Source of the DNA: Humisphaera borealis
GTDB taxonomy: Bacteria; Planctomycetota; Phycisphaerae; Tepidisphaerales; Tepidisphaeraceae
DNA: 64,000 nucleotides
Direction of reading: 5' to 3'
Assembly (NCBI RefSeq): GCF_015169395.1
Contig: NZ_CP063458.1
Location: forward strand, 1,364,001 to 1,428,000
Below are positions 34,753 through 43,250 of the stretch, piece by piece (the first letter of the stretch is position 1; every line of letters starts with the position of its first letter). Below the pieces are notes generated by a model. The model ran no database searches. It was not told the origin of the DNA and saw nothing but the letters and a program-made list of their open reading frames with translations. The position numbers and the translations under genes were made by a program.

Positions 34753-37700
34753 ATGGGCCTAGACCCCCGCTTTCTCACGTCCAACGGGCGTGAAGTCTTC
34801 ACCGGAAACGAACTTCTCATCAAAGGCGGCCTGGAGGTTGAAGGTGGTGTCCACCTTTACACCGGCTATCCCGGCTCTCCCGTAGCCGGATTCTTTGACG
34901 TCCTCGGTGACATCCAGGACATCCTTAAGAAACAGGGTATCCGCGCCTTTCAGGCCAACAACGAAGCGCTTGCGGCCGCCGCGCTGAACGGATCGCAGAT
35001 GCTTCCCGTCCGCGGGTTGATCGCGATGAAGTCGGTTGGCGTTCATGTGGCAGCGGACGCGCTCGCCCTGGGAAACCTCGCCGGTGCCCACCCGCAAGGC
35101 GGGGCCGTCGTGATCTCCGGAGAGGATCCCTGGTGCGACAGCACCCAGGTACCCGCAGACAGCCGATTTCTCTTCGAACACCTGCGCATGCCGGTCGTCG
35201 AGCCGGGGACCATTCAGGAAGTCAAAGACTGGATCGACGTCTCGTTCAAGCTCAGCCAGGCTGCGGGCATGTACATCGGGTACATCGTCACGACGGCCCA
35301 GGCCGACGGCGGCGGAAGCGTCTATTGCAAGCCCAACGTCTTCCCCGAATTGTCCCAGAAACATCGCATCGAAATGGAAACGGCGAAGGTCGACCTCGGC
35401 CGCGTCCTGCTTCCGCCCCGGACTTGGCAACGCGAGTTGCTGACTCCCGAGCGATTTGCCTCAACGATTGCCGCGGCGCGCAAGCTTGGCGTGAACAGGA
35501 TCATCCCCGCGACCAAGTCCGACAATCCTGAATCCTCGAAGCCCTCCTCTCCACTCGGCTTCATCGTCACCGGCATGGGCGGGCCGTACCTGCAGCATGT
35601 GCTGACCGATCTGGGCCTCTCGGGTCAGTTCCCCATCCTGCAGATGGGCCTGAGCTACCCTGCCGACGTTGGGCTGGTCCAGGAGTTTTCAAAGCTCTGC
35701 ACGACAATGATTGTGATTGAGGAACGCCGAAGCTTCCTCGAGAAGAACATCCGCGACTCGGCGTTCCGCGATCTGCCGGCCGAAGAGGCGATCGAGCTGA
35801 CGAGCAGGATGTTCGGGAAGAAGTTCCCGACGGCCAAGGGAACCGAAGCCAACGGCATTCCCGAAGTGCGCGGGCTCAGCGTATCGCTGCTCGCTCAGAA
35901 GCTCATTCCGTTGATCAAGTCGTTTAAGGAGATCCCCGAGCACCTGCGCAACGGCCGACTGACGGCCGAACTGGAGCGCATTCGCAAGGCGAGCAAGCCG
36001 AAGCTGCAGGTGGTCAGCGATCGCCTGATCGCCCGTACGCCAACGTTCTGCCCCGGCTGTCCGCACCGCGACAGCTCGGCGACACTGCTTCAGCTTCGCG
36101 AAGACCTCAAGAGCGCCGAGTACATGCAGAAGGTTCACGGCAAGCCGCCGGTGGACCTGGTCGCCCACGGCGACACCGGTTGCTACACGATGCTGATGTT
36201 TGCGCCGACCGAACAACTCATGCACAACTACAGTGGCATGGGACTGGGCGCCGGAACGGGCAGCGGTGTCGATTCGTTCATCACGAACAAGCAGCTTGTG
36301 TTCATGGGAGACGGCACTTTCTTCCATTCCGGGCAGGTTGCCATCTCCAACGCGGTCAAAGCCGGCCAGGACATTACGTTTATCATCCTGGAGAACGGCA
36401 CGACCGCGATGACCGGGCACCAGGAGCACCCCGGTACCGAGATCGATCTGCTCGGCAACGAGTCCTACATCCAGGACATCGAATCGATCTGCCGGGCGAT
36501 GAAGGGCACCAGCCCGCTGACGGTCACCAAGTTGCGACCCGACAATCGCAGCGACTACCGCCAGGCGCTTGAGAAAACGATTCTCGCCGACGGCGTCAAA
36601 GTCATCATCGCCGACAAGGAATGCGGCATCACGCACCAGCGCACGGTACTGAAGAACGAGCGAAAGGCCGTCAAAGAGACCGGCTTCCTGCCGACCAAGA
36701 CACACATGAACGTCACCCCGGAAGTGTGCGAACACTGCCTGGAGTGCACCAAGCAGACGGCCTGCCCGGGGCTGACGCTGGTGAACACCGACTACGGCCG
36801 TAAGGTCGATACAGACCTGACCTGGTGCGTGAACGACGGCGCGTGCGAGCGCGTCCGGGTGAACAACAGCTACGGCCGCGATCACAAGCCGTGCCCGAGC
36901 TTCGAGCAGATCACGGTCGTCCGATCGAAGCGCAAGCGATACAAGCTCCCGAACATGGAGCTGAGCAAGCTCCCGGACCCCGAACAACTGCACAAACTGA
37001 CCAACCCCGGCGACGCCTGGCGGGCGCACCTGTCCGGTGTCGGCGGGATGGGTATCGGCGTAGTGAACGCCATCCTCGTCCGCGCCGGTCACAAGGAAGG
37101 CTACAACGTCCTCTTCCAGGACAAAAAAGGGCTGGCGATCCGCAACGGCGGTGTGTACTCGCAGATTTCATTCATCCGCGAAGCGGACGAGGAGCGCGAA
37201 GCTGGGAGCGGGAAGCTGGAAGGAAAGCCGGGCACTCAGCACTCAGCGCCTACTACACCCACTGGCACCACCGGCTCCATTCCCTTCGGCAAGGCAGACC
37301 TGCTTCTGGGCGTGGACATCCTCGAAGCCGCCCGGGCGATCGATCCTCGGGAACAGTTCCGTATCGCGTCGATCGACAAGACGTCGGCGGTTCTCAACCT
37401 GCACAAGCAGCCGACCGTCTACACCCTTCTGGGCAAAGAAGACTTCGATCCCGAGCACATGAAGCAGGAGATCGCCGATCACTGTCTTCCCGGCCAGGTG
37501 TATGCCCGCAACCTTTCCGAGATCTGCGAGCAGCGGCTGGGGTCGAAGCTTTACGTCAATATCATGATGCTGGGCGTGGCTTATCAGCTCGGGCTGATTC
37601 CTGTCAGCTTCCACAGCATTGCCTGGGCGATCAAGGATTCGATTCGCCGGGAGTTCCGTAAGAATCTCAAGGCGTTCAACATCGGCCGGCGGTTGGCCCT

Positions 37701-38541
37701 CGACGGCCGGGCCCTGCCGAGCCGTCCGGAGCCTGTAACCTGGCAGCAGGTGGTCACCAACAAGGGGCGCATTCTCCGCAAGACCAAGCGGTACAACGCC
37801 CAGTGGTGGGGAGAGACCTTTGAGAAGCTTGTCACGGACGCGGCGCTATCCATGCCGAACCTGCCCGATCAGGCCAAGTACGACCTCGCGGTGAGAATCT
37901 ACGACCTGTTCCAGTACCAGAACGACGCTTTTGCGCTGCAATACATCGCGCTGATCCGGAAGATGTACCAGCGCGACGATGCCCGACGTGACTATGGCGT
38001 CACTGTCGCCGCAATCTGGAACCTCGCAAAAGTGATGCTGATCAAGGACGAAGTGTACGTCTCGTACCTGCTCACGCGGTACGAGAAGCACGTTCGCGAC
38101 GTCGCCAAGTACCATGTCGATGAAGCCAACGGCGACAAGCTCGTCTACCGCCATCACACCAGCCCCGAGTTCAACCTCGGCCCCTGGCGTATTCGGCTGA
38201 AGCTGACGACGCGGGATTGGCAGCTCAAGCTCGTCCGCCATATGAAGTGGTGGCGGAAACTACCAGGGTGGCATAAGCGTGAGGTCGCGTTCCGCGACTG
38301 GTACATCGCTCTGCTCGATCGCGTGGCATTGGGTTCTCCGGCAGAATACGAGCGGGCCTTGAAGGTACTGAAGTCGCCTGAGGAAGTGACTGGCTACCGC
38401 GAAGTCCGTTATCCGAAGCAGGATAAGGCGCGGGAGTGGGTGGAAGCAGAGATGTCGCGTCCGCTGCCTGTGCATCGCCCCGAGTTGCACCTGAACCGCG
38501 ACGTGCTGGCGACGGCGGCGGCCGAACGCGTCGAAGTCTAA
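34753..38541 (+). CDS. Fused indolepyruvate:ferredoxin oxidoreductase (IorA-IorB type)
   Basis: A 1262-aa cytoplasmic enzyme combining both subunits. The N-terminal pyrimidine-binding domain has YTGYPGSPVAGFFDVL and NNEALAAAALNGSQM; the TPP domain has FCPGCPHRDSS, HGDTGCYTML and FMGDGTFFHSGQVAISNAV. Fe-S ligands are C659, C662, C665, C671, and a second motif C692-x2-D695-x2-C698 with CPS at 714. From about 755 comes the gamma/IorB domain (LSGVGGMGIGVVNAIL, QDKKGLAIRNGGVYSQI), then a C-terminal DUF6537-like region. It oxidatively decarboxylates aryl or other 2-oxo acids to acyl-CoA, reducing ferredoxin. At residues about 814-841 a Gly/Ser/Thr-rich segment is encoded by internally repetitive DNA (see findings). 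A hairpin terminator follows. Confidence 0.92.
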   Translation: MGLDPRFLTSNGREVFTGNELLIKGGLEVEGGVHLYTGYPGSPVAGFFDVLGDIQDILKKQGIRAFQANNEALAAAALNGSQMLPVRGLIAMKSVGVHVAADALALGNLAGAHPQGGAVVISGEDPWCDSTQVPADSRFLFEHLRMPVVEPGTIQEVKDWIDVSFKLSQAAGMYIGYIVTTAQADGGGSVYCKPNVFPELSQKHRIEMETAKVDLGRVLLPPRTWQRELLTPERFASTIAAARKLGVNRIIPATKSDNPESSKPSSPLGFIVTGMGGPYLQHVLTDLGLSGQFPILQMGLSYPADVGLVQEFSKLCTTMIVIEERRSFLEKNIRDSAFRDLPAEEAIELTSRMFGKKFPTAKGTEANGIPEVRGLSVSLLAQKLIPLIKSFKEIPEHLRNGRLTAELERIRKASKPKLQVVSDRLIARTPTFCPGCPHRDSSATLLQLREDLKSAEYMQKVHGKPPVDLVAHGDTGCYTMLMFAPTEQLMHNYSGMGLGAGTGSGVDSFITNKQLVFMGDGTFFHSGQVAISNAVKAGQDITFIILENGTTAMTGHQEHPGTEIDLLGNESYIQDIESICRAMKGTSPLTVTKLRPDNRSDYRQALEKTILADGVKVIIADKECGITHQRTVLKNERKAVKETGFLPTKTHMNVTPEVCEHCLECTKQTACPGLTLVNTDYGRKVDTDLTWCVNDGACERVRVNNSYGRDHKPCPSFEQITVVRSKRKRYKLPNMELSKLPDPEQLHKLTNPGDAWRAHLSGVGGMGIGVVNAILVRAGHKEGYNVLFQDKKGLAIRNGGVYSQISFIREADEEREAGSGKLEGKPGTQHSAPTTPTGTTGSIPFGKADLLLGVDILEAARAIDPREQFRIASIDKTSAVLNLHKQPTVYTLLGKEDFDPEHMKQEIADHCLPGQVYARNLSEICEQRLGSKLYVNIMMLGVAYQLGLIPVSFHSIAWAIKDSIRREFRKNLKAFNIGRRLALDGRALPSRPEPVTWQQVVTNKGRILRKTKRYNAQWWGETFEKLVTDAALSMPNLPDQAKYDLAVRIYDLFQYQNDAFALQYIALIRKMYQRDDARRDYGVTVAAIWNLAKVMLIKDEVYVSYLLTRYEKHVRDVAKYHVDEANGDKLVYRHHTSPEFNLGPWRIRLKLTTRDWQLKLVRHMKWWRKLPGWHKREVAFRDWYIALLDRVALGSPAEYERALKVLKSPEEVTGYREVRYPKQDKAREWVEAEMSRPLPVHRPELHLNRDVLATAAAERVEV

Positions 38542-38638: not shown

Positions 38639-40213
38639 CTATTGACGTCGCACGAGTTGCATCTCGGTCACCTGTGTGGCGCCGGGGATCATCTGCAGCC
38701 CGTTCTTCCAGCCCACCAGCATGCCGGACTGCACGTCGAAGTAGCATTCCGTGCTCTCGTTGGGTCCCTTCTCGACGATCACGGCAACGCCGCCTCGAAC
38801 ACCCGCGAAAATCGTCCGGTAGCCGGTGATGCGGTCTTCGTCGAGGACGGCGTTCGGCTGGAGTTTCTGGATCACACCAGGCGACATCCAGAGCGCGCCG
38901 AAGTACATCGCCCCTCCGAAGCATCGCATGCCCTGGCCGCCGTCATTCAGTCCGCCGCGATCGATGTTCTTTACCATCGAGAACTGCGCGACCGCCGTCT
39001 TCTTGGTGCCGCCCTGGAAGGCGAAACTCATCGCGACTGGGAACCCTTGCTGCGGGGGCAGTGCGTAGGGCCCCTGCTGTTGCATTTCCAGACGATATCC
39101 GCCGCGGAACTCCATCGTGAAGCCTTTGACCGCCCAGGCCGGAGCGTCCTGGTTGGCGCCGGCGAAGTCAATGCTTCGTGCGCCCAGCAGGTTGAACCGC
39201 TCGATCGTCACGGAGCCGTTGAAGTGGTGAGTGCCGTCGGGACTCTGAACCGCGAAGTCCGGTGCGCGGTCGCAGCGATAGCCCGCCAACAGCAGGCCTG
39301 AATCCAGGTCGTAAGTGAGGCTTGCCGAGCCGTCGCCATTGGTGCGGAAAAGGGCGATGGCGTTGAACTCCTTGCCGAGTGCGGCGTAGCGAACCCGAAC
39401 GGTCGTCGTGCCGTCCACTTCGCGGCCCTGGGGTATCTGGGCCAGCACCGCCGGGTTCATCCAATAGTCTCCAAGCGCGACCGGATTGCCCGCAACCAGG
39501 CTGATGCCGCCGGTGGAGATCACTTTGCCCTGTAGGTTGGCGTCGATCGAGAAGAGCCGCATCTCGGCGAGGATGCCCTTCTCGGTCGCCTCCTGAACGG
39601 TGACCGTCTGCATGCTCTCCTGGCCTCGGCCGTTATGGCCCCGAAGGCTGTACCGCTTGCCATTCCTCTCGATAAAGCCATTCGGGTCAGGAACGAGGCT
39701 TGCGCCGTTGGTCGTTGAACGGCCGGTGCTCCAATACATGCGATAGCCGGTCTTCATGAACGCAGGAAGCGCCGGACCCCCGGCGGCTGGTTGGCCATTC
39801 GGGGTGATCTGCCCGGGCTGATTGGCTGGGGCGGGCTGCGGTTGGGGAACCGGCTGTTCGACGGGTGCCGCGACTTCCTTGCGTTTGAGAATGTGTCGCT
39901 TCTTTTCGCTTTGGAGAAGAAGTGTTCCGTCGTCCTGAACGTCGATCGAGATGTCGAATGACTGATTGTCGACTTTGAAGCCCCCGAGCAGGCCGGACGC
40001 TTCCGTATACACGCCCGCAAGCGGATGTGACTTCCCGCCGACCGCGATCGTGCCGGTGTAGTTGCCGGTCGAGTCGCCCCGAAGTATCAGGGTGATCTGC
40101 TCATTAACGTAAATGCCGGAGATGTCTTTTGGTGCGGCACTGACCGTTGCCGCAAACGCGACAGTCATCAGACCGACGATGGCGGTTGCGATCGAAACTG
40201 GGAGGCGACGCAT
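38639..40213 (-). CDS. Secreted protein of unknown function, 524 aa
   Basis: ATG 40213 has AGGAG six bases upstream and opens a signal peptide (MRRLPVSIATAIVGLMTVAFAATVSA). A small beta-rich domain follows (about 30-110: ISGIYVNEQITLILRGDSTGNYTGTI), then a Pro/Gln-rich linker (about 118-150) and a long beta-rich region to the end. I recognise no catalytic motif or domain. Two separate beta-rich parts joined by a disordered linker suggest a multidomain exported protein. It lies convergent to the oxidoreductase gene and divergent from the GH15-ferredoxin gene. An 18-bp perfect palindrome 49 bases upstream may be its operator. Confidence 0.7.
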   Translation of the reverse strand: MRRLPVSIATAIVGLMTVAFAATVSAAPKDISGIYVNEQITLILRGDSTGNYTGTIAVGGKSHPLAGVYTEASGLLGGFKVDNQSFDISIDVQDDGTLLLQSEKKRHILKRKEVAAPVEQPVPQPQPAPANQPGQITPNGQPAAGGPALPAFMKTGYRMYWSTGRSTTNGASLVPDPNGFIERNGKRYSLRGHNGRGQESMQTVTVQEATEKGILAEMRLFSIDANLQGKVISTGGISLVAGNPVALGDYWMNPAVLAQIPQGREVDGTTTVRVRYAALGKEFNAIALFRTNGDGSASLTYDLDSGLLLAGYRCDRAPDFAVQSPDGTHHFNGSVTIERFNLLGARSIDFAGANQDAPAWAVKGFTMEFRGGYRLEMQQQGPYALPPQQGFPVAMSFAFQGGTKKTAVAQFSMVKNIDRGGLNDGGQGMRCFGGAMYFGALWMSPGVIQKLQPNAVLDEDRITGYRTIFAGVRGGVAVIVEKGPNESTECYFDVQSGMLVGWKNGLQMIPGATQVTEMQLVRRQ

Positions 40214-40634: not shown

Positions 40635-43250
40635 ATGCCTCGCGATATTCCAGTCGGCAACGGACGAATGCTGGTTACTTTCGACGACAAGTACCAGATC
40701 CGCGACTTCTACTACCCCCACGTCGGGCAGGAGAACCATGCAGGCGGAAACCCGTTTCGCTTCGGCGTCCATACCGACGTCCCCGGCGAGGGCCGCAGCG
40801 CACTGTACTGGACCAGTTCGCCCGGCTGGCAGATCCGTCAGCGTTATCTTCGCGACACGCTCACCACCAGCGTCAGCCTGGAGCACCCCGAACTGCAGTT
40901 AGTGGTCTACTGCAACGACTGTGTCGACTTCCACCGAAACATCCTGGTCCGAAAGATCAAGATCAAGAACCTCGCGAACCATGGTCGCATGGTGAAAGTC
41001 TTCGCGAACCAGGACTTCAACATGTTCGGGGCGAAGATAGGCGATACGGCCTACTACGATCCCGATCTGCGGAGCATGGTCCACTACCGGGCCAACCGCT
41101 ACGTGTTGGTGACCTTCTTCGGGTCGGCGCCGGAGGGATCTTCGGCCGACACGATTGGTGCTCAAGGCATCGACGAATACGCCACCGGCACCGCCGGCTT
41201 CCATGGTGCCGAAGGCACCTGGCGTGACGCGGAAGACGGCCACCTTCAGGGGAACCCGATCGCACAGGGCGCGGTCGACTCGACCTGCGCCTGCCATGTC
41301 GCCGTCCCGCCCCTAGGCGAGAAGGTCATCTACATGGCAATGATCGCCGGGCTAAGTCGCGGCGAACTTGTGGACATGCACTCTTGGCTGCTGCGGATGG
41401 ATCCCCAGGGCGTCATCGACCGAACCAGTGGCTACTGGCGGCTGTGGGTCGGCGGAACGAACATCAACTTCGGTAACCTGCCGCCCAAGGTCGTCGAGTC
41501 CTTCAAGCGGTCGCTCCTGGTTCTGCGAACCCAGATCGACAACGGCGGTGCAATCATCGCCGCCAACGATTCGGACATCATGCAGTTCGCTCGGGACACC
41601 TACTCGTACATGTGGCCGCGCGACGGCGCTCTCGTCGCCAATGCCCTGGACCTGGCCGGCTTCTCGGACATCGCGCGCTCGTTCTACACCTTCTGCGCCA
41701 AGGTCATCACCGAAGACGGCTACTTCCTTCACAAGTACAACCCCGACGGCTCACCCGCTTCGTCCTGGCACCCGTGGGTGCTTAAAGGCAACCGCGTACT
41801 GCCGATCCAGGAAGACGAGACTGCGCTGGTGGTCTGGGCCCTTTGGCGGCACTACTTCCGTTACCGCGACATCGAGTTTATCCGCCCGCTCTGGGTCGAT
41901 GTCGTTCAGAAGGCCGCCGACTTCATGGTGCGGTACCGCGACCCGCGAACCGGACTGCCCCTGCCCAGCTACGACTTGTGGGAAGAACGCTGGGGCGTCC
42001 ACGCGTTTACCGTCGCCACTGTGTACGGCGGATTGAAAGCCGCGCACAACTTCGCCGTCGCATTTGGCGACCGCGAGCGTGCCGCCAACTACGCCAAGGC
42101 TGCCGAAGAAATGAAGATCGGCGCCGCCAAGTACCTTTTCAGCCCCAAGCTCAATCGCTTCGTCCGTCGACTGGTCCCCAAGGACATGCAGGCACCGCCG
42201 GACAGCCCGACCTATCACGAAGATCAGCCTTTGGCATATGAGCCTTCGATCGACGAGGTCTACGAGGTGGACGAGACCGTCGATGCCTCGCTCTACGCGA
42301 TCTACAAGTTCCACTTGTTTGACGCCGACGACCCCCGCGTCGTCAGCACGATGCGCGCGGTCGAGTCCAAGCTGTGGGTGAAGACCCGCGTCGGCGGCAT
42401 CGCCCGCTACGAGAACGACTACTACCACCGCATCAGCGACGACATCGCGAGCGTGCCGGGCAATCCCTGGTTCATTTGCACGCTCTGGCTCGCCGACTAC
42501 CACATTTCCCGAGCCAAGAACACTGCCGACTTGAAGATGGCGATCCCCATCCTGGAATGGGCCGCCGGCCATGCCCTGGAATCCGGCGTGCTCGCCGAGC
42601 AGGTGCATCCGTACACGAATGAGCCCTTGAGTGTCGCCCCGCTGACATGGAGCCATGCGACGGTGGTCGCGACGGTCATCAAGTACCTCGAGGCCCTCGA
42701 GCAGGCTCAACTCTGCGACACTTGCCAGCATCCGATGTTCCGGCTCCGGAAACGCGGCAGCGTCGAAGTGCGCAACCAGGCCGTCTTCAACCGTCTGGAC
42801 GCGGACTTCGAGTCCGAAGACGACAGTTCACTTGAAATGGCCAGCCCGTCGGGGCGGGTGGTGGTGCCCGATCCGAAGACCGGCAAGTCGTTGCGGCTGA
42901 CCCTCTCGATCGACACCCGTGATTGCATCGGCTGCGACGTGTGCGTGGCGCATTGCGACAAGGGCGTACTGCGGATGGTCGAGCAGAAGGCGCTGGTTGA
43001 TCTGCGGAACCTGAACCAGTGCGACATGGATGGCGCCTGCGTGGACGTCTGCCCGACGAAGGTGGTCGCACTGAGCGTAACGCCCGAGGATGGGATCTCC
43101 TTGAGCGATGCGGAAACCGCCAGCCTTAACGACGGGCCCGTCCTGACGCCGCTGGATGAATTGTTCGATGGAACCAGCCACGGGAAGACGCCGAGCCCAT
43201 CCGAGGCAAAAAAGGGCAACGGGCGAAAACTGCCGATCGTGGGCCGATAA
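40635..43250 (+). CDS. GH15 glucoamylase-like enzyme fused to a C-terminal 2[4Fe-4S]-type ferredoxin domain
   Basis: A single uninterrupted 871-codon frame. Residues about 1-270 form the beta-sandwich domain usual in bacterial GH15 enzymes (VGNGRMLVTFDDKYQIRDFYYPHVGQENH). The (alpha/alpha)6 domain (about 285-705) has TYSYMWPRDGALVANALDLAG, the acid motif YDLWEERWGVHAFT (Glu450) and the base in AEQVHPYTNEPLSVAPLTWSHA (Glu655). GH15 enzymes hydrolyse or phosphorolyse alpha-glucosides and trehalose-type sugars. A CDTC pair follows, then a linker, then C764-x2-C767-x2-C770-x3-C774 and C796-x2-D799-x2-C802-x3-C806-P, a ferredoxin fold with Asp replacing one Cys. No signal peptide, so cytoplasmic. 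The link to electron transfer is inferred. Confidence 0.9.
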   Translation: MPRDIPVGNGRMLVTFDDKYQIRDFYYPHVGQENHAGGNPFRFGVHTDVPGEGRSALYWTSSPGWQIRQRYLRDTLTTSVSLEHPELQLVVYCNDCVDFHRNILVRKIKIKNLANHGRMVKVFANQDFNMFGAKIGDTAYYDPDLRSMVHYRANRYVLVTFFGSAPEGSSADTIGAQGIDEYATGTAGFHGAEGTWRDAEDGHLQGNPIAQGAVDSTCACHVAVPPLGEKVIYMAMIAGLSRGELVDMHSWLLRMDPQGVIDRTSGYWRLWVGGTNINFGNLPPKVVESFKRSLLVLRTQIDNGGAIIAANDSDIMQFARDTYSYMWPRDGALVANALDLAGFSDIARSFYTFCAKVITEDGYFLHKYNPDGSPASSWHPWVLKGNRVLPIQEDETALVVWALWRHYFRYRDIEFIRPLWVDVVQKAADFMVRYRDPRTGLPLPSYDLWEERWGVHAFTVATVYGGLKAAHNFAVAFGDRERAANYAKAAEEMKIGAAKYLFSPKLNRFVRRLVPKDMQAPPDSPTYHEDQPLAYEPSIDEVYEVDETVDASLYAIYKFHLFDADDPRVVSTMRAVESKLWVKTRVGGIARYENDYYHRISDDIASVPGNPWFICTLWLADYHISRAKNTADLKMAIPILEWAAGHALESGVLAEQVHPYTNEPLSVAPLTWSHATVVATVIKYLEALEQAQLCDTCQHPMFRLRKRGSVEVRNQAVFNRLDADFESEDDSSLEMASPSGRVVVPDPKTGKSLRLTLSIDTRDCIGCDVCVAHCDKGVLRMVEQKALVDLRNLNQCDMDGACVDVCPTKVVALSVTPEDGISLSDAETASLNDGPVLTPLDELFDGTSHGKTPSPSEAKKGNGRKLPIVGR

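Follow-up and report, generated by a model that had tools for sequence, protein, structure and literature searches.

What purpose might a ferredoxin domain serve at the end of a GH15 glycoside hydrolase, given that GH15 hydrolysis requires no redox centre? The question is raised by a gene of Humisphaera borealis that lies within the 64,000-nucleotide stretch of DNA analysed here (the window). A reading made from the sequence alone had proposed that one uninterrupted reading frame of this gene joins a complete GH15 enzyme to a C-terminal domain with two ferredoxin-type cysteine motifs. GH15 enzymes are among the best-studied enzymes, and to our knowledge none carries an iron-sulfur module.

Architecture of the GH15-ferredoxin protein

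The gene (Table 1) is a single ATG-started frame with no internal stops, as had been claimed, and the N-terminus of its product (MPRDIPVGNG) is kept in relatives; no signal peptide was seen when this N-terminus was inspected by eye. The Humisphaera genome (7.19 Mb, one contig) contains a single copy of the gene, and the model of the full-length protein has a mean pLDDT of 82.6. In a domain search both parts of the protein scored above the Pfam cut-offs, with PF00723 matching residues 296–679 (E 7.8e-28, 98 bits against a cut-off of 22) and PF13237 (Fer4_10) matching residues 758–807 (28.9 bits against a gathering score of 25.5).

Comparison of the model of residues 1–688 with solved structures indicated that the GH15 part forms an (alpha/alpha)6 barrel, the best matches including the bacterial glucoamylase 1lf6 (Z 40.3 over 593 residues), the glucodextranase 1ug9 (Z 39.0) and the dextran dextrinase 9ju0, with 5z3a at Z 38.7. 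The NCBIfam model TIGR01577, "oligosaccharide amylase", aligns with residues 12–685 (E 2e-101), but the score of 340.5 bits is below the equivalog cut-off of 820.7 bits, marking the protein as a relative and not a member of that group. The fold, the PF00723 match and the invariance of E450 and E655, which we take to be the general acid and the general base from what is known of GH15 enzymes, bear out the proposal that the GH15 enzyme is complete. The 1lf6 glucoamylase and the TIGR01577 oligosaccharide amylases share the N-terminal beta-sandwich, the barrel and both catalytic glutamates with the Humisphaera protein but, unlike it, are not known to have an Fe-S domain.

As substrate the sequence-only reading had offered glycogen or trehalose. 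We rejected a trehalase identity, since the trehalase models TreH1 and TreH2 gave 58 and 50 bits, far under their cut-offs of 820 and 1000, with E values of 7e-16 and 1.5e-13 as against 2e-101 for TIGR01577; trehalose is thus the less likely substrate. Glycogen or maltodextrin is favoured by the presence elsewhere in the Humisphaera genome of genes for a debranching enzyme, a glycogen phosphorylase and a glycogen-synthase-type transferase, and by the neighbourhood of the fused genes in f11, a second family of the class to which f1, the family of the Humisphaera protein's genome, belongs. In all five f11 loci examined a GDE_N/GDE_C glycogen debranching enzyme is encoded downstream of the fused gene (assigned by Pfam for L047 and by sequence clustering for the remaining loci). 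The GH15 part is probably a cytoplasmic, exo-acting alpha-glucan glucohydrolase, with glycogen-derived oligosaccharides or malto-oligosaccharides as the predicted substrate.

A GH15-ferredoxin protein is, in line with the sequence-only reading, which was aware of no characterised counterpart, not described in the open-access literature as we found it, although absence there is no proof, and matches found in a PDB search cover either the GH15 or the ferredoxin part, with no chain containing both. What is new is the kind of accessory domain; the enzyme family itself is known.

Table 1 Features of the Humisphaera GH15-ferredoxin gene, with positions in the window
Feature	Position	Strand	Basis
GH15-ferredoxin fusion gene, 871 aa	40635..43250	+	Single open frame; full-length relatives from the same family 66-80% identical
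N-terminal beta-sandwich domain, residues 1-262	40635..41420	+	Predicted mostly strands; aligns from residue 1 to the N-domain of 1lf6, 1ug9 and 9ju0
GH15 (alpha/alpha)6 catalytic domain, residues 263-690	41421..42704	+	PF00723 at 296-679; structure match to GH15 glucoamylases at ~280-688
E450, predicted general acid, WEER motif	41982..41984	+	Invariant in 48 homologues
E655, predicted general base, LAEQ motif	42597..42599	+	Invariant in 48 homologues
Linker CxxC, C694 and C697	42714..42725	+	Exactly 19 residues past the WSH motif in homologues
Ferredoxin domain, residues 756-812	42900..43070	+	Fer4_10 above gathering score; polyferredoxin profile match; full-length model predicts E-H-E-E-H-E (pLDDT about 90)
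Cluster motif I, complete, C764-x2-C767-x2-C770-x3-C774	42924..42956	+	Sequence; invariant among fused f1 and f11 proteins
Cluster motif II, variant, C796-x2-D799-x2-C802-x3-C806-P807	43020..43055	+	Sequence; second ligand Asp or Asn in f1, Cys in f11
C-terminal tail, residues 813-871, variable, probably disordered	43071..43247	+	pLDDT < 50 for 824-871; 9-36% identity in the family

Cluster ligands in three fused lineages

The assignment of the C-terminal domain to the ferredoxins is supported by a match to Fer4 (23.5 bits against a cut-off of 21.1; Fer4_7 and Fer4_9 fall slightly under theirs) and by profile comparison with solved polyferredoxins (E 1.9e-25 and about 5e-22). It has the motif I cysteine spacing and the order of strands and helices of 2[4Fe-4S] ferredoxins and polyferredoxins such as 9sfi chain O and MvhB in 9sw6, from which it differs in being fused to a glycoside hydrolase and in having a motif II that is one cysteine short. 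Modelled alone, the domain gave a poor structure (pLDDT 58.7). In the Humisphaera genome the fused copy is the sole match to the domain profile at E 0.001, and we therefore rejected a free ferredoxin paralogue from this genome as the source of the domain.

Of the two motifs that had been proposed, the first is complete and the second is not, its second cysteine being replaced by D799. Across 16 fused homologues there is no variation at C764, C767, C770 and C774 or at C796, C802, C806 and P807, and the second position of motif II is Asp in 12 of the 14 matching f1 proteins and Asn in the other two. Two complete CxxCxxCxxxC motifs are found in f11, in all six fused proteins as far as they were read. 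In the usual ferredoxin topology the ligands of cluster I are the first three cysteines of motif I and the last cysteine of motif II; applied to the Humisphaera protein, this leaves cluster I complete and cluster II one cysteine ligand short. Judged by these ligands, cluster II of the Humisphaera family is probably a 3Fe-4S or an Asp-ligated 4Fe-4S cluster, and the Asn found in some relatives makes a 3Fe-4S cluster plausible. A C-x2-D-x2-C-x3-CP repeat like that of motif II is also present in 9sfi chain O (KCDLDGACQKACP). Among the structures matched is 2z8q, titled only "Ferredoxin", which we presume to be a ferredoxin of the Pyrococcus furiosus type, in which one cluster ligand is Asp. In ferredoxins of that type Asp replaces the second cysteine of CxxCxxC, as in the Humisphaera protein, where by contrast the Asp lies in motif II and not in motif I and gives way to Asn in some relatives.

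Within f1 the ferredoxin domain is mostly 68–81% identical to that of the Humisphaera protein (51% in the most divergent), as compared to 32–52% for the linker and 9–36% for the tail, so selection acts on the domain. Anammox bacteria (Brocadia, Kuenenia, Scalindua and relatives) encode a fused protein of 775–780 aa, and all 16 anammox proteins examined have cysteines at +0, +3 and +6 from the start of the motif together with CCP at +40/+41. Each thus keeps the cluster-I set, made up of three ligands from motif I and the cysteine of the distal CP, and has none of the four cluster-II ligands. That the cluster-II ligands vanish as a unit while those of cluster I strictly persist suggests that the predicted clusters are really bound. 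Cluster I, as predicted from the ligands, is the only cluster for which these are kept in every fused lineage, and cluster II would vary by lineage, from a 4Fe-4S cluster in f11 to none in anammox bacteria.

A further pair of cysteines lies in the linker. This CxxC follows the WSH motif at a distance of exactly 19 residues in 35 of 36 homologues with the fusion and in 25 of 43 without it, and in this GH15 subfamily it is possibly half of a zinc ribbon or a thiol switch.

Gene neighbourhoods and the proposed role of the Fe-S module

In Humisphaera the fused gene is preceded, 2.1 kb upstream, by a gene (34753–38541, + strand) for a single-chain indolepyruvate:ferredoxin oxidoreductase-type protein with a TPP domain, a POR gamma-like domain, DUF6537 and, mid-chain, a ferredoxin-like cysteine segment. 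Adjoining the fused gene is a gene for a 524-aa protein (38639–40213, − strand) with no Pfam or NCBIfam match, and nuoH (48294) and nuoJ (49727) lie 5–6.5 kb downstream. In seven Phycisphaeraceae loci (L046, L048, L050, L055, L058, L080 and L107) a ferredoxin-less GH15 gene is located between nuoG, on the opposite strand, and complex I genes of the nuoJ-nuoL/M/N type. None of the neighbours of the Humisphaera gene recurs in the loci of its relatives.

At many anammox loci the GH15-ferredoxin gene is followed by a gene for a Tll0287-domain hybrid histidine kinase, mostly together with two response regulators. This is the arrangement at L068 (14189–17824), where the kinase carries a Tll0287 (heme-c Cache) domain, and likewise at L065, L066, L067, L071, L077, L079 and L084, the seven of 16 loci at which the kinase frame overlaps the 3′ end of the fused gene. 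The set of fused gene, kinase and response regulators is apparently an ancestral anammox operon. CxxCH is present in every anammox Tll0287 kinase examined. Several anammox loci have a gene of the rubrerythrin family just upstream of the fused gene. Binding of c-type heme by the Tll0287 domain has been reported and, where the domain is attached to signalling modules, so have NO binding and NO-sensor properties (2026 preprint, PMC12889525).

We propose that the protein is a cytoplasmic GH15 alpha-glucan glucohydrolase with a permanently fused accessory Fe-S module that is regulatory and contributes no catalytic centre, a reading to which we give a probability of about one half. The accessory nature of the module follows from the chemistry of GH15, which needs no redox centre, and from the persistence of GH15 proteins without it. 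A regulatory role is favoured over electron delivery because a heme sensor kinase is the sole signalling neighbour to recur, and there is no recurrent oxidoreductase. This context is that of a lineage other than Humisphaera's. Against the regulatory reading count the limitation of the kinase link to anammox bacteria and of the debranching link to f11, the lack of a conserved partner beside the Humisphaera gene and the poor model of the isolated ferredoxin domain; nor does a co-operonic kinase show any sensing by the Fe-S cluster as such.

Electron delivery would mean that the ferredoxin domain exchanges electrons with a separate oxidoreductase, for example an enzyme oxidising the sugar that is set free or a 2-oxoacid:ferredoxin oxidoreductase, and that the fusion couples glucan breakdown to electron transfer. 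The nearest solved relatives of the ferredoxin domain are electron-carrier polyferredoxins and PsaC, the cluster-I ligands are retained in all fused lineages, and the gene 2.1 kb upstream in Humisphaera could supply a partner. However, relatives do not keep that oxidoreductase beside the fused gene, which led us to reject coupling to it, no other oxidoreductase recurs among the loci of the fused genes, and GH15 catalysis involves no redox step. We consider this explanation rather unlikely.

Origin, loss and meaning of the fusion

The survey of relatives showed that the architecture is conserved: at least three lineages have this fusion, each in independently sequenced genomes. Within f1, 15 of 16 full-length homologues have the ferredoxin domain (the exception is L017), and in the phylum sample the match extends into the ferredoxin region in 25 of the 27 matching genomes of f59 (anammox), most of which also hold a second GH15 without the domain. 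Recurrence in f1, in f11 and in nearly all sampled anammox genomes indicates that the fusion is not an accident of assembly, and on the strength of conservation across three lineages we rejected chance cysteines or an artefact as its source. The GH15 proteins of Phycisphaeraceae have no ferredoxin domain, and none was found in relatives from Nitrospirota, Chloroflexota, Acidobacteriota, Eisenbacteria or Obscuribacterales among the best 80 of 529 named relatives. Among plasmid sequences, the best of the listed GH15 matches share only 22–27% identity with the query, and none of them covers 80% of it.

In a tree of the GH15 part, f11 branches outside the clade of f1 and Phycisphaeraceae (SH-aLRT 100 and 99), which, given an ancestral fusion, implies that Phycisphaeraceae lost the ferredoxin domain at least once. 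Two further genes, L083 (3736–5799) and L099 (532–2601), fall among the anammox fused proteins in the tree, yet their products terminate right past the linker, and the kinase start sits directly at the shortened GH15 end; from their sequences, these are anammox-type GH15 genes that lost the ferredoxin part. The anammox fused proteins group with Phycisphaerae, but the joining node is unsupported. Stronger evidence than the tree for a common origin of the anammox and Phycisphaerae fusions is the shared linker past the last GH15 helix (ELHTCGQCGRSIFRYDRAGRQQV in anammox bacteria, DLHRCPTCGRSIFRMDRRGRHQI in f11 and AQLCDTCQHPMFRLRKRGSVEV in f1), which in linker-only hhalign comparisons among the three lineages gave E values of 2.8e-17, 2.4e-11 and 4e-12. 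Since the linker aligns across all three, one ancestral fusion is the simplest history, and one such fusion followed by several losses is probable. Retention of GH15 after loss of the module (in Phycisphaeraceae, L017, L083 and L099) indicates that the module is dispensable for keeping the GH15 gene.

These repeated losses, and the decay of cluster II from lineage to lineage, might be expected of a structural or assembly module, in which the clusters merely stabilise the fold or dimerise the protein and have no redox role. The ferredoxin-less sisters show, however, that GH15 stands without such support, and the strict retention of the cluster-I ligands, in a domain far better conserved than the linker and the tail, also speaks against a structural module; we regard it as unlikely. 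Mis-joined genes, a frameshift error or two proteins translated separately from one frame are very improbable, because the in-frame fusion is repeated in many independent assemblies from at least three lineages and the linkers, when inspected by eye, showed no internal start whose position is conserved.

According to the regulatory reading that we prefer, cluster I would respond to redox state, oxygen or NO by being oxidised or lost, the change in the cluster would alter how stable or active the hydrolase is or how it assembles, and glucan breakdown would thereby track the cell's electron-acceptor status. Accessory Fe-S clusters occur in other non-redox enzymes, among them the glutamine-PRPP amidotransferase of Bacillus subtilis, which is controlled by oxygen-driven cluster loss, and the Fe-S DNA glycosylases. 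As in the Humisphaera fusion, the chemistry of these enzymes does not need the cluster; their folds are unrelated, and the Humisphaera cluster is predicted to occupy a ferredoxin domain of its own. NO is a pathway intermediate in anammox bacteria. Tentatively, a built-in Fe-S switch may tie the hydrolysis of storage glucan in planctomycetes directly to redox state or NO, the fused enzyme of anammox bacteria working with the heme-c NO-sensing hybrid kinase of the same operon, and the linker CxxC possibly acting as a thiol switch reduced via the cluster.

The cluster variants found in nature, with two full motifs, with one full and one altered motif, or with one only, amount to a natural experiment on what the clusters are for. 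That several planctomycete lineages, anammox bacteria among them, have kept the fusion points to a direct physical link between the use of carbohydrate reserves and redox or NO state, one that is testable on a single expressible protein.
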